Source: Haloarchaeobius iranensis
GTDB lineage: Archaea; Halobacteriota; Halobacteria; Halobacteriales; Natrialbaceae
Assembly: GCF_900103505.1 (NCBI RefSeq)
Contig: NZ_FNIA01000002.1
Coordinates: 62,001 to 126,000 of the forward strand
Reading direction: 5' to 3'
DNA: 64,000 nt
In this document: piece after piece, positions 53,742-62,042 of the stretch
Layout of the letters: each line of letters starts with the position of its first letter
Numbering within the stretch: the first letter of the stretch is position 1
Translations under genes and position numbers: made by a program
Notes under the pieces: generated by a model
Told to the model about the DNA's origin: nothing
Databases searched by the model: none
The model's input: the letters and a program-made list of their open reading frames with translations, nothing else

Positions 53742-54941
53742 ATGGAGACGACCGAGGCCTTCGTCGGACTGGACTGCGTCGACTGCGGCGAGCGCTTCGA
53801 CGCCGCCGAGGCGACACACGGCTGTCCCGACTGCGGGGGTATCCTCGACCCCGCGTACGAGTACGACGACGTGTCGCTGTCGAGAGAGGCGCTCGCCGAC
53901 CGTCCGTTCGAGTCGATGTGGCGCTACGCCGAACTGCTGCCGTTCACCCGCGAGTCGGCGGTGTCGATGGGCGAGGGCGCGACGGCGCTGGTCGAGTGCC
54001 CGACCCTGGCCGACGAGCTGGGCGTCGGCGAGGTGTACATCAAGGACGAGGGGCGCAACCCGACGGGGACGTTCAAGGACCGCGGGCAGACCGTCGCGGT
54101 GACCGCGGCAGCCCAGCACGGCGCGACGGACGTGGCGCTCGCCTCGGCGGGCAACGCCGGCCAGGCCGCCTCGGCGTACGCCGCGCGTGCCGGCATGGAT
54201 GCCCACGTGTTCCTGCCGGCGCGCTCCGGCTTCACGAACAAGGCGATGGTGAACGTCCACGGCGGCGACATGAGCGTCGTCGGGGGCCGCATCACCGACG
54301 CGGGCGAGGCGTTCGCCGACGCCATGGACGACCCGGAGAACGACCACTGGTACTCGGTGAAGACGTTCGAGACGCCGTACCGCCACGAGGGCAAGAAGAC
54401 GATGTACTACGAGATCGCCGAGCAGCTGGACTGGGAGACGCCCGACGCGGTCGTCTACCCGACCGGCGGCGGCGTCGGCCTCGTCGGGATGCACAAGGCC
54501 GCCGAGGAGTTCGCATCGCTCGGGCTGACCGACGACGTGCCCGGGTTCTACGCGGCCCAGGCGACCGGCTGTGCGCCCATCGTCGCCGCCTTCGAGGAGG
54601 GGAAGGACGTCCACGAGGCGTGGGAGCATCCCGACACTATCTGCGGCGGCATCGAGATCCCGGACCCCGGTGCGAGCCCCTGGATACTCGACGTGCTCCG
54701 CGAGTCCGACGGCGGCGCGGTCGCGACGGACGACCCGGACATCCTCGACGCCGCGATCACGGTCGCCCAGCACGAGGGCCTGGAGATGGGCGCGACCTGC
54801 GCTGCGGCCGCCTCGGGCGCGTGGAAGCTCGCCGACGAGGGCGAGTTCGACGAGGACGACACCGTCGTGCTCGTCAACACCGGCACGGGCAACAAGGACG
54901 ACGACATCCTCCGCAGCCACCTGATGGGCCAGGGTATCTGA
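53742..54941 (+). CDS. thrC: Threonine synthase
   Basis: PLP enzyme converting O-phosphohomoserine to threonine. The 399-residue protein has an N-terminal zinc-ribbon-like motif (C12, C15, C28, C31) and the PLP lysine K112 in NPTGTFKDRG. ASAGNAGQAASAYAARAG (serine/glycine-rich phosphate loop) and the late PTGGGVGLVGMHKAA follow. Length and motifs are typical of class II archaeal threonine synthases. A TATA-like GGCTTAGGA lies about 25-30 nt before the ATG. Confidence 0.95.
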   Translation: METTEAFVGLDCVDCGERFDAAEATHGCPDCGGILDPAYEYDDVSLSREALADRPFESMWRYAELLPFTRESAVSMGEGATALVECPTLADELGVGEVYIKDEGRNPTGTFKDRGQTVAVTAAAQHGATDVALASAGNAGQAASAYAARAGMDAHVFLPARSGFTNKAMVNVHGGDMSVVGGRITDAGEAFADAMDDPENDHWYSVKTFETPYRHEGKKTMYYEIAEQLDWETPDAVVYPTGGGVGLVGMHKAAEEFASLGLTDDVPGFYAAQATGCAPIVAAFEEGKDVHEAWEHPDTICGGIEIPDPGASPWILDVLRESDGGAVATDDPDILDAAITVAQHEGLEMGATCAAAASGAWKLADEGEFDEDDTVVLVNTGTGNKDDDILRSHLMGQGI

Positions 54942-55000
54942 CCGCGGCCTCGCGGCCGTTCCCGACACGATGCGCGACTGTCGACCGTGTAACTTTTACT

Positions 55001-55014
55001 TTAGACACGTCTAA
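55001..55014. promoter_or_regulatory. DtxR-type palindromic operator
   Basis: TTAGACACGTCTAA is a perfect 6-2-6 inverted repeat ending 12 nt before the DtxR gene start at 55027. DtxR/MntR/Idr proteins bind palindromes starting with TTAG and ending CTAA, and the site overlaps the transcription start region, so autoregulation is likely. Confidence 0.7.
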
Positions 55015-55026
55015 TCCGGGGCAAGG

Positions 55027-55725
55027 ATGCTTTCCGACGTGATGGAGGACTATCTGAAGGGCATCTACATCCTTCAGGAGCGCGCGGAGCCGCCCATCTC
55101 GACCTCCCAGATCGCGGACTACCTGGACGTCACCCCACCGACGGTGACGAGCATGGTCGAGAAGCTCGACGACCGGGGGCTCGTCGAGCGCGAGAAGTAC
55201 AAGGGCGTCGAGCTGACCGACGAGGGAGTCACCGTCGCACTCGAGGTGCTCCGGCACCACCGGCTCCTCGAGGCCTACCTCACCGAGCACCTCGACTACG
55301 ACTGGTCCGAGGTCCACGAGGAGGCCGACGTGCTCGAACACCACATCTCCGAGGAGTTCGAGCGCCGCGTCGCCGAGGCGCTGGACGACCCCACCGTCGA
55401 CCCCCACGGCGACCCGATCCCGAACGCCGACCTCTCGCCGCCGGACGACGCCGAACACACCCGGCTGTCGGAGCACGAGCCCGGCACGACGGTCGAGATA
55501 TCCCGCGTCAGCGACCGCGAGGAGGAGGAGCTCCGGTACCTGAAGGACGCGAACATCACGCCCGGCACTGTCGTCCGCATCGTCGACGTGGCCCCCTTCG
55601 GGATGGTCACCGTCGCCGTCAGCGACGGCGGCCGACAGAGCCTCCCGGAGGAGATCGCCGACTCCATCCGCGTCAAGCGGGTCGAGACCGACGCCGTCTC
55701 CGCCGAGGAGGTGCCCGAGGCGTGA
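55027..55725 (+). CDS. Metal-dependent DtxR/MntR family repressor
   Basis: Represses metal genes when bound to Mn(II) or Fe(II). The 232-residue protein has an N-terminal wHTH (MLSDVMEDYLKGIYILQ; TPPTVTSMVEKLDDRGLVERE), a dimerisation/metal domain with RHHRLLEAYLTEHL and HEEADVLEHHISEEFE, and a C-terminal FeoA/SH3-like domain from about 150 (GTTVEISRVSD). The His/Glu/Cys metal sites appear to be His- and Glu-based. Its stop overlaps the GTG of the downstream transporter by 4 nt, so the two form one unit. Confidence 0.92.
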   Translation: MLSDVMEDYLKGIYILQERAEPPISTSQIADYLDVTPPTVTSMVEKLDDRGLVEREKYKGVELTDEGVTVALEVLRHHRLLEAYLTEHLDYDWSEVHEEADVLEHHISEEFERRVAEALDDPTVDPHGDPIPNADLSPPDDAEHTRLSEHEPGTTVEISRVSDREEEELRYLKDANITPGTVVRIVDVAPFGMVTVAVSDGGRQSLPEEIADSIRVKRVETDAVSAEEVPEA

Positions 55726-56489
55726 CCGGCTTCGCGGAGGTCGTCGTCGTCGCGTTCGTCGCCCAGCTGGCGGTGCTGCCCGGCGAGAAGGTCCAGTTCA
55801 TCATCGCCGGGCTGTCGACGCGCTACCATCCCCTCGTCGTCGTCTCCGCCGCAGCGACCGCGTTCGCCGGCTGGACCGCACTGGAGATCCTCCTCGGTGA
55901 GTTCCTCCTCCGGGTGCTCCCGGGCGTCTACCTCGACATCTTCACCGGCACCCTCTTCCTCGTCTTCGCCGGGCTGCTCCTGCGCTCGATGCCGACGGAC
56001 GGCGACCGCAGCTTCGACAGCGTCGAGACCGACGGTGGGTTTCTCGCGTCCGTCGAGGGTGCCACCGAGACACGAACGGTGTTCGGCCGCGAACTCCCCG
56101 CCAGCCTCGCCGCGTGGTTCCCCATCTTCGGGATGATGGCCGCGGGCGAGTTCGGCGACAAGACCCAGATGGTCACCATCGGGCTCGCGGCCCAGTACGG
56201 CGCGACGCCGGCCATCTGGACGGGCGAGATGCTCGCCATCGTCCCGGTGAGCCTCGCGAACGCCTACTTCTTCCACCGGTTCGCGGGCCGGGTGAACCTC
56301 CGGACGGCCCACATCGCCTCCGCCGCGCTCTTCGGCTTCTTCGGACTGGACACGTTCCTCGCACTCCTGACAGGGTTCTCGTTCTGGGAGACGTTCGTCG
56401 GGGCGGCCACGGACGCCGTCTTCGCCGTCACGGACTGGCTGGCCAACGTCCTCCCGCTCGCCGTCGACAGCGTGGCGACGCTCCCGTAG
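55722..56489 (+). CDS. TMEM165/GDT1 family cation transporter
   Basis: Probable Mn(II) or Ca(II) exporter/antiporter. The 255-residue protein has about seven helices and the family's two acidic motifs. The second is canonical (GEFGDKTQM), while the first reads LPGEKVQFI instead of ExGDKT. A loop of about 50 residues divides the halves. The GTG start overlaps the DtxR stop by 4 nt (GTGA). Being translationally coupled to a DtxR/MntR-type regulator makes metal efflux or homeostasis the strongest inference. Confidence 0.87.
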   Translation: MTGFAEVVVVAFVAQLAVLPGEKVQFIIAGLSTRYHPLVVVSAAATAFAGWTALEILLGEFLLRVLPGVYLDIFTGTLFLVFAGLLLRSMPTDGDRSFDSVETDGGFLASVEGATETRTVFGRELPASLAAWFPIFGMMAAGEFGDKTQMVTIGLAAQYGATPAIWTGEMLAIVPVSLANAYFFHRFAGRVNLRTAHIASAALFGFFGLDTFLALLTGFSFWETFVGAATDAVFAVTDWLANVLPLAVDSVATLP

Positions 56490-56574
56490 TCGGCCGCCAC
56501 TTCGCCGGCTGACTTTCACAACGTCCTTCGCCGCCTCCGGTCGCCTTTTGTATCCCACTCGCGTACGGCCGCCG

Positions 56575-57264
56575 ATGGCATCGACTGTCGCCTCGCTCTT
56601 CGCCGGCCTCCTCTTCGGCTTCGCACTCGCTTCCCCACCGGGGCCGATGAACGCGATCATCGCCGAGGAGAGCGTGCTCGGCGGCTGGCTCTCCGGCGTG
56701 CGAGCGGGCCTCGGTGCCTTTACCGCCGACGCCTGCTTCTTCGTGCTCGCGTGGCTCGGCGTCGTCGCGTTCGTCGAGACCGTCCCAGCGGTCAAGGGCG
56801 TCATGGTCGCCGCCGGCGGCGTCCTCATGCTCTACTTCGCCTACGGGGCCGCCCGCGACGCGATGACCGCGACTGACTTCGTCGAGGTCGACCCCGAGGA
56901 CGACCGGAAGGGGTTCACCAAGGCGTTCGTGCTCGCGCTCACGAACCCGTACCAGATCGTCTTCTGGCTCACCGTCGGCGTCCACATGCTCGACGACCGC
57001 ACCATCGACGTGTTCACCCACGTCCCCTACGTGAGCGAGTCGCTCGCCGGCACCGTCGTCGTGCAGGCAGGGTCGCCGGCGCTCGTCGTCGGCTTCTTCG
57101 GCGGTATCCTCGTCTGGGTTACGGGCTTCCCGGCCACGCTCGTCGCCGTCGGCAAACGCGTCGACAGGTTCGCCCCGGTCGTCGCGGGCGCGAGTGCGGT
57201 GGTGCTCGCGCTGTTCGGCGGCTTCTTCCTCGTCGACGCGGTACGGACGTTCGCGCCGGTGTAG
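56575..57264 (+). CDS. LysE family transporter
   Basis: Amino-acid or small-molecule exporter of the LysE/RhtB family. The 229-residue protein has about six helices, with the family signature SPPGPMNAIIAEESVLGG in the first and NPYQIVFWLTVG in the fourth. The ATG at 56575 gives a hydrophobic N terminus, MASTVASLFAGLLFG; an in-frame start 27 nt upstream is less likely. Substrate unknown. It follows the GDT1-like gene after 85 nt. Confidence 0.9.
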   Translation: MASTVASLFAGLLFGFALASPPGPMNAIIAEESVLGGWLSGVRAGLGAFTADACFFVLAWLGVVAFVETVPAVKGVMVAAGGVLMLYFAYGAARDAMTATDFVEVDPEDDRKGFTKAFVLALTNPYQIVFWLTVGVHMLDDRTIDVFTHVPYVSESLAGTVVVQAGSPALVVGFFGGILVWVTGFPATLVAVGKRVDRFAPVVAGASAVVLALFGGFFLVDAVRTFAPV

Positions 57265-57300
57265 CCGTCGCTCCGGCACAGAAACAGCGGTTCGACCGCC

Positions 57301-61102: not shown

Positions 61103-61537
61103 TCAGTCCGCGCTCTCGCCGGCGGCGACCTCCAGATAGCAGCACTGGTCGGCCTCGGCGTCGAAGCAGTCGGGGCACTCCTCGCGTCGGTCGATGATGG
61201 TGTCGAGTCGCTCGGCGACAGTGTCGTCGATGACGGCCTCCAGGGCGCTGGCCTCCCCGCGGTAGTCCTCGACCTCCAGGACGTTCGCGAGGAAGCGCTC
61301 GATGATGCAGTAAGTCTGGAGGGCGTCCTCGGCGCGGACGATCCCGTCGTCGGTGAGTGTCGCACCCTTGTACTTCTCGTGGTCGACGAGCCCCCGGTCC
61401 TGGAGCTTGCCGACCATCTCGTTGACACTGGCCGGCGAGACGTCGAGCATGTCCGCCAGCGCGCCCGTCGCTGCCGGCCCGTCTTCCATCCGTTGCACCA
61501 GGTAGATCGCCTTGAGATACTGGTCTGCGGTGTTCAT
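61103..61537 (-). CDS. Metal-dependent DtxR family regulator (short form)
   Basis: A 144-residue protein with a wHTH (ADQYLKAIYLVQR; SPASVNEMVGKLQDRGLVDHEKYKGATLTDDG) and a metal/dimerisation domain, but no FeoA domain. The C terminus carries a Cys-rich stretch (EECPDCFDAEADQCCYLE), which may bind metal or Fe-S. It is shorter than the DtxR at 55027. It follows a ferritin-like gene on the same strand after 10 nt, so iron storage and regulation appear cotranscribed. Confidence 0.9.
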   Translation of the reverse strand: MNTADQYLKAIYLVQRMEDGPAATGALADMLDVSPASVNEMVGKLQDRGLVDHEKYKGATLTDDGIVRAEDALQTYCIIERFLANVLEVEDYRGEASALEAVIDDTVAERLDTIIDRREECPDCFDAEADQCCYLEVAAGESAD

Positions 61538-61547
61538 CGGTTGGTCC

Positions 61548-62042
61548 TCACGCTCGTCGCTCCATGACTTCGGTGACCTCCTCGACGCCCTCCGCCTCCT
61601 CCTCGCGGATCTGGCGGAGTGTGTCGAGTACCAGTTCGCGGTCGATGCTGAACTCGCTCTCGCTCGCCTCGATGGCCTCGACGAGGTCGTCGTAGAACTT
61701 GTACGCGGTCTCCTCGTTGCAGAGCTGGTCGTACAGCAGCCCGTCGAAGTCCTCCGGCTTGGTCTGGGCGTACTGGGCCTCGACCAGCTTGTTTATCTCC
61801 TCGTAGGGGACCGTCTCGGCGTCCAGGTCCTCGATGAGTGCCTCGAGTCGGCTGCGGTGCTCTGCTGACTCCTCGGCGGCGTGTTCGAGGAGGTCGCGAA
61901 CGTCCTCGTCGACGCCCTCCTCGTCCTCGAAGGAGTCCAGGTGATGGTACGCGCGGGATTCGACGACTTCCTCCAGCACCGCCCCGATCTGCAGGAGACG
62001 GGCGAGCTGGTGGTCGGTCGCGACGCGCTGCCCCAGGCTCAT
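61548..62042 (-). CDS. Ferritin-like / rubrerythrin-type protein
   Basis: A 164-residue, all-helical acidic protein resembling the ferritin-like superfamily. Candidate di-iron ligands are ExxH-type pairs such as EEVVESRAYHHLDSF, EESAEHRSRLEALIE and EETAYKFYDDLVEAIE. It starts MSLGQRVATDHQLARLL. It probably binds iron or detoxifies peroxide and is the first gene in a unit with the DtxR regulator. A TATA-like GTTAAGTG lies about 25 nt upstream. Confidence 0.85.
   Translation of the reverse strand: MSLGQRVATDHQLARLLQIGAVLEEVVESRAYHHLDSFEDEEGVDEDVRDLLEHAAEESAEHRSRLEALIEDLDAETVPYEEINKLVEAQYAQTKPEDFDGLLYDQLCNEETAYKFYDDLVEAIEASESEFSIDRELVLDTLRQIREEEAEGVEEVTEVMERRA

Follow-up and report, generated by a model that had tools for sequence, protein, structure and literature searches.

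Based on the conservation of a palindromic promoter element, the domain content of the genes behind it and a genome-wide search for further copies, we describe in Haloarchaeobius iranensis what is, judged from its sequence, a real and conserved metal-homeostasis operon of an already known kind. It lies in a 64,000-nucleotide stretch of DNA, hereafter the window. We propose that the operon is probably autoregulated, and that it shares one metal-loaded MntR/SirR-type regulator with an importer operon. In this mechanism, the regulator would be loaded with metal, most likely Mn(II), bind as a dimer to TTAGAC-N2-GTCTAA directly behind a TATA-like box, and thereby block transcription of its own operon, i.e. 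of the regulator and GDT1 genes. The same protein would bind the identical site upstream of an operon for a ZnuA-type metal ABC importer, and regulator, GDT1 and importer would form one small regulon.

The exact palindrome TTAGACACGTCTAA (TTAGAC-N2-GTCTAA, here TTAGAC-AC-GTCTAA, an inverted repeat with 6-bp arms) occupies positions 55001-55014 of the window, 26 bp before the ATG of the regulator gene. An inferred TATA-like box, CTTTTAC (54993-54999, plus strand), stands directly 5' of it, and an A+T peak is found at the same place in the promoters of relatives. Two genes follow on the plus strand, namely a DtxR-family regulator of MntR/SirR type with a C-terminal FeoA domain (55027-55725, 232 aa) and a GDT1/UPF0016-type transporter (55722-56489, 255 aa), the latter assigned through Pfam, conservation and an AlphaFold model. 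The reading frames overlap by 4 nt, GTGA, and the GDT1 start codon is GTG. The first-pass annotation, which had placed a palindrome at the promoter of a DtxR/MntR-like gene overlapping a GDT1-type gene by 4 nt, is thus confirmed in its coordinates and by Pfam domains above cut-off, and the palindrome proves to be more than chance when its conservation is set against controls. A LysE-type translocator, identified by Pfam (56575-57264, plus strand), begins 85 bp downstream of the GDT1 gene and is a possible further member of the transcription unit; a LysE relative lies inside the fetched flank in 23 of 80 related loci. Upstream of the pair there is a threonine synthase-like gene, with relatives in the fetched flanks of 21 of the 80 loci; together with the LysE-type gene it frames the pair, the whole occupying window positions 53742-57264. 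The whole genome (3.77 Mb, 73 contigs) holds a single GDT1 gene, comprising two half-matches, and two matches to the DtxR metal-binding domain, one in the gene at 55027-55725 and one at window positions 61169-61354. The latter belongs to a second DtxR-type regulator (61103-61537, minus strand, 144 aa) that has no FeoA domain and adjoins a 164-aa open reading frame (61548-62042, minus strand) with no Pfam match.

Across haloarchaea, the palindrome is a conserved element that we regard as a putative operator. Eighty loci, from more than 20 named haloarchaeal genera by their titles, were fetched by GDT1 protein similarity alone, in a scan seeded with VLPGEKVQ and GEFGDKTQ. The regulator leads the GDT1 operon in 40 of these related loci, and GDT1 stands without a regulator in front in the other 40. 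An operator site, defined as at least 10 of 12 bases matching within 180 nt before the operon, precedes the operon in 71 of 80 loci, i.e. in 37 of the 40 that the regulator leads and in 34 of the 40 where GDT1 has no regulator before it. The same threshold is reached by 29 of 8000 dinucleotide-shuffled promoters and, elsewhere in these loci, by 3 of 3411 windows, and a chance palindrome is rejected on these controls. The 80 loci share descent and are not independent trials, but across them the arms of the operator are kept while the central dinucleotide is free to vary. Where a regulator-led locus has a site (37 loci), the operator starts 21-30 bp before the regulator start codon. The site is absent at this threshold in nine of the 80 loci, three of them regulator-led, and it is weaker (10/12) in L067, a Haloarchaeobius locus that is the closest named relative of the window's own. 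Among 292 genomes of the class, the exact site occurs in 137 and a reversed control pattern, counted from the same table, in 18; GDT1 relatives are present in 219, and regulator relatives (E<=1e-50) in 289.

Two TTAGACNNGTCTAA sites are present in the 3.77-Mb genome, and none is added when one mismatch is allowed. The site outside the GDT1 operon lies on contig C28, before the gene of a ZnuA-family binding protein; next in order come an ABC ATPase, assigned by its sequence motifs, and an ABC-3 permease. The unit had been described as self-contained; this does not hold, since a metal ABC importer operon on another contig has the second exact operator in front of it, and regulator, GDT1 and importer appear to share a small metal-transport regulon. 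When the pattern was relaxed to TTAGANNNNTCTAA with one mismatch allowed, the genome showed no excess (14 sites, compared to 18 of the reversed control), and hence only exact or near-exact sites were used.

We inspected 72 exact sites, made up of the first 30 listed, the two own sites and 40 hand-chosen among the matches listed, a selected set whose shares are not rates. Sixty of them lead a ZnuA-type binding protein (30), the regulator (17), GDT1 (10) or an ArsP_2-type transporter (3). Of the remainder, six fall into a single intergenic stretch within one genus and six lie elsewhere, one of the latter before a gene whose ZIP match is weak and below cut-off. The ArsP_2-type proteins (PF11449; L041, L057, L177) are putative heavy-metal exporters, and in their promoters the TATA-like box lies on differing sides of the operator. 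In two genomes of one genus (L178, L181), an exact operator is located 175-238 bp before a small DUF7471 membrane protein. In the genus g30, an exact operator is combined with a half-site and a TATA-like box in an importer-like layout (L046, L049, L050, L053, L163, ~1501-1905; the same element on the opposite strand in L044). It is directed towards a ~350-nt conserved stretch that precedes a NUDIX gene; the stretch shows small indels, and no small open reading frame is common to the loci. The stretch has no Rfam match and a predicted stem with little covariation, and L044 diverges after ~100 columns; it is a candidate for a metal-regulated non-coding RNA.

For comparison of the targets, promoters were aligned on the operator and the A+T peak was read as TATA-like, all promoter elements being inferred from sequence. 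In GDT1/regulator promoters the peak lies just before the operator, 69 of 71 being richer there than at +36 to +42, whereas in 23 of 30 importer promoters it lies after the operator. Of the 30 importer promoters, 18 also carry a TTAGAT-like half-site that begins at +20 to +24 (5 or 6 of 6 bases), as does, in the same interval, 1 of 71 GDT1 promoters. In seven of the 30 importer promoters the downstream peak is not the richer one, and L042, L060 and L062 resemble GDT1 promoters. The location of the operator between TATA-like box and start codon suggests blocking of transcription at the GDT1 operon. As the operator is placed differently at importers, however, repression by blocking cannot serve as a single rule for every target. 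A rule drawn from operator position, by which the regulator represses export and activates import, was not adopted, because the seven importer promoters deviate and SirR is described in published data as repressing the importer.

Alternatively, GDT1 may expel Mn(II), with high manganese switching the operon on as the metal-loaded regulator leaves the TATA-side operator or activates there, a possibility that we regard as real but unlikely. According to textbook logic an exporter is induced by manganese, and the differing layouts of GDT1 and importer promoters are compatible with this. As far as the excerpts of the cited sources go, the family members MneA and Mnx are Mn exporters (PMC7380456), MntR-type proteins can both repress uptake and activate efflux (PMC11275975), and sirR, called a Mn(II)-dependent autorepressor, is reported in the same review to rise early in metal stress (PMC3600143). 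On the other hand, the operator between TATA-like box and start codon is in a blocking position, the importer promoters L042, L060 and L062 share the GDT1 layout, and in Halobacterium, according to the excerpted study, sirR mRNA is positively correlated with that of the importer genes zurA/zurM/ycdH (PMC1779511). In these partial data from Halobacterium there is a hint of expression together with uptake genes. The transport direction of the motif-altered GDT1 clade becomes a question of sign, i.e. whether the transcript falls or rises with manganese.

The transporter matches Pfam GDT1 (PF01169) in two stretches, with 93.3 bits against a cut-off of 27; proteins of this family carry Mn(II), Ca(II) or protons, and the window's member is a predicted divalent-cation transporter. 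Its first motif reads LPGEKV (residues 19-24) and its second EFGDKT (143-148). The first-pass annotation had noted an altered first motif, PGEKVQ, and took it to suggest changed selectivity; the motif is as stated, a change of selectivity is conjectural, and the alteration extends to the whole clade. All 81 aligned proteins carry LPGEK at the place of the family's E-x-G-D-K, a count in which 80 come from the motif-seeded scan and with which the loci of an unseeded search agree, and a change private to the window's gene is thereby rejected. Valine of the first motif is replaced by glycine in 6 of the 81, while EFGDKT in the second half, E55, E169 and D210 are invariant. The excerpted review defines GDT1/UPF0016 proteins by a motif E-x-G-D-[KR]-[ST] that is present once or twice (PMC7380456); the second copy, EFGDKT, conforms to this, and the first deviates in all 81. 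Mutations E19A and D22A alter transport by MneA in the same excerpts (PMC7380456), and the matching residues in the window's protein are L19, which takes the place of a glutamate required by this Vibrio exporter, and E22. In two other GDT1 clades of haloarchaea the motif reads ALPGEKGQ and [AG]TFGDKGQ, the latter also without the first glutamate. The [AG]TFGDKGQ transporter follows a close relative of the regulator (63-69% identical) in L200, L201, L202, L204, L205, L206 and L209, and the regulators leading this divergent clade in L200, L202, L206 and L209 are without the operator site. In the AlphaFold model of the transporter, helices are broken at both motifs (mean pLDDT 78.8, moderate). 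A search against the PDB returned no sequence match at E<=0.01 and, with this moderate model as query, no fold match at E<=0.001; therefore, no claim on a metal site is based on structure. More speculatively, and with considerable doubt on our side, the haloarchaeal GDT1 clade, in which the first glutamate essential to the exporter is lost, might be repressed jointly with the Mn ABC importer by the regulator in its metal-loaded form and serve uptake or its tuning rather than export, which we liken to plant CMT1, a protein that brings Mn into the chloroplast stroma. If so, it would be a prokaryotic GDT1 clade running against the exporter rule.

The regulator contains the Pfam domains Fe_dep_repress (PF01325), Fe_dep_repr_C (PF02742) and FeoA (PF04023), all above cut-off, and so has the N-terminal winged helix and the metal-binding/dimerisation domain of the DtxR family, with FeoA in addition. 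SloR, ScaR, IdeR and B. subtilis MntR are among its relatives of solved structure. In an alignment to IdeR, SloR and ScaR, Asp8 and Asp101 correspond to Met10 and Cys102 of IdeR; the IdeR ligand numbering and the ligand roles of the aligned positions are our assumption. Among the 40 regulators, positions D8, H78, E82, E104 and H105 are invariant, H97 is kept in 39, and position 101 is Asp in 38 and Glu in two. This pattern supports assignment of the ligand positions to the manganese type. We consider it improbable that the regulator responds mainly to iron or zinc and that the unit serves that metal instead. The importer binding protein scores about equally with the zinc model AztC (87.9 bits) and the manganese model MntC (83.6 bits), both far below their cut-offs, and the excerpted text on Haloferax discusses SirR as an iron regulator (PMC11349517). 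However, the ligand positions are without the Met and Cys of iron-type members, and the best NCBIfam match is an MntR model (NF047407, 216.3 bits, below its cut-off of 350); the regulator reaches the curated cut-off of no named NCBIfam MntR model. In addition, sirR deletion in Halobacterium raises zurA, zurM and ycdH mRNA in the presence of Mn, as the excerpted report states (PMC1779511).

It is very improbable that the palindrome serves autoregulation or another factor only, with GDT1 as a passenger downstream of the regulator, for although the translational coupling of the two genes could let GDT1 ride along and a site by itself does not name its protein, the site lies immediately upstream of GDT1 in 34 of the 40 loci in which no regulator precedes it, and the pairing with a close regulator relative persists for a GDT1 that is only ~33% identical. 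GDT1 itself is thus a likely target of the regulator. We note that the proposed autoregulated operon and its importer provide a regulator, its defined operator and two predicted target transporters, all open to testing in laboratory haloarchaea; the sign of control and the transport direction are worth following.

Archaeal DtxR-family regulons with palindromic sites and metal transporter targets have reportedly been described by Leyn and Rodionov (J Bacteriol 2015, 197:451). A review of GDT1 proteins, as excerpted, cites this archaeal DtxR paper among its sources on four halobacterial UPF0016 members, and its assignment of those four genes to the two-component system ManS/ManR looks like a mix-up (PMC7380456). 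With such regulons, apparently including halobacterial UPF0016 genes, already in print, and with SirR studied in Halobacterium, the arrangement is largely anticipated, and by the excerpts of these sources a coupled regulator in archaea is not new (PMC7380456, PMC1779511, PMC3600143). The Halobacterium system of SirR and zurA/zurM/ycdH likewise has a DtxR-type regulator acting on a Mn ABC importer, but the excerpted account does not name GDT1, and SirR is only a putative counterpart of the window's regulator. A Halobacterium sp. locus (L145) carries the regulator-GDT1 pair with an 11/12 site. Presumably the gene VNG0535C is a neighbour of sirR and would then be a candidate GDT1, an uncertain assignment. 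In the excerpted study VNG0535C, a 'membrane protein of unknown function', falls in the same cluster as sirR and zurA/zurM/ycdH (PMC1779511). The MntR system of B. subtilis (mntH, mntABCD, mneP, mneS), according to partial accounts, is similar in that a Mn-sensing DtxR-family regulator acts on uptake and on another transporter class. B. subtilis MntR differs as a 142-aa chain without a FeoA domain, and its efflux targets are CDF-type exporters, not GDT1. The genes mneP and mneS are activated by MntR. Bacterial GDT1 relatives are mostly controlled by the yybP-ykoY riboswitch, as the excerpted review has it (PMC7380456); none was found here, and riboswitch control of the unit is rejected on the lack of any Rfam match at E<=1 in 54900-57300. 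With V. cholerae MneA, Synechocystis Mnx and plant CMT1, the window's GDT1 shares PF01169, the two halves and the intact second motif EFGDKT; in its first motif, LPGEKV, the first glutamate (E19 of MneA) is missing and Glu takes the place of Asp.
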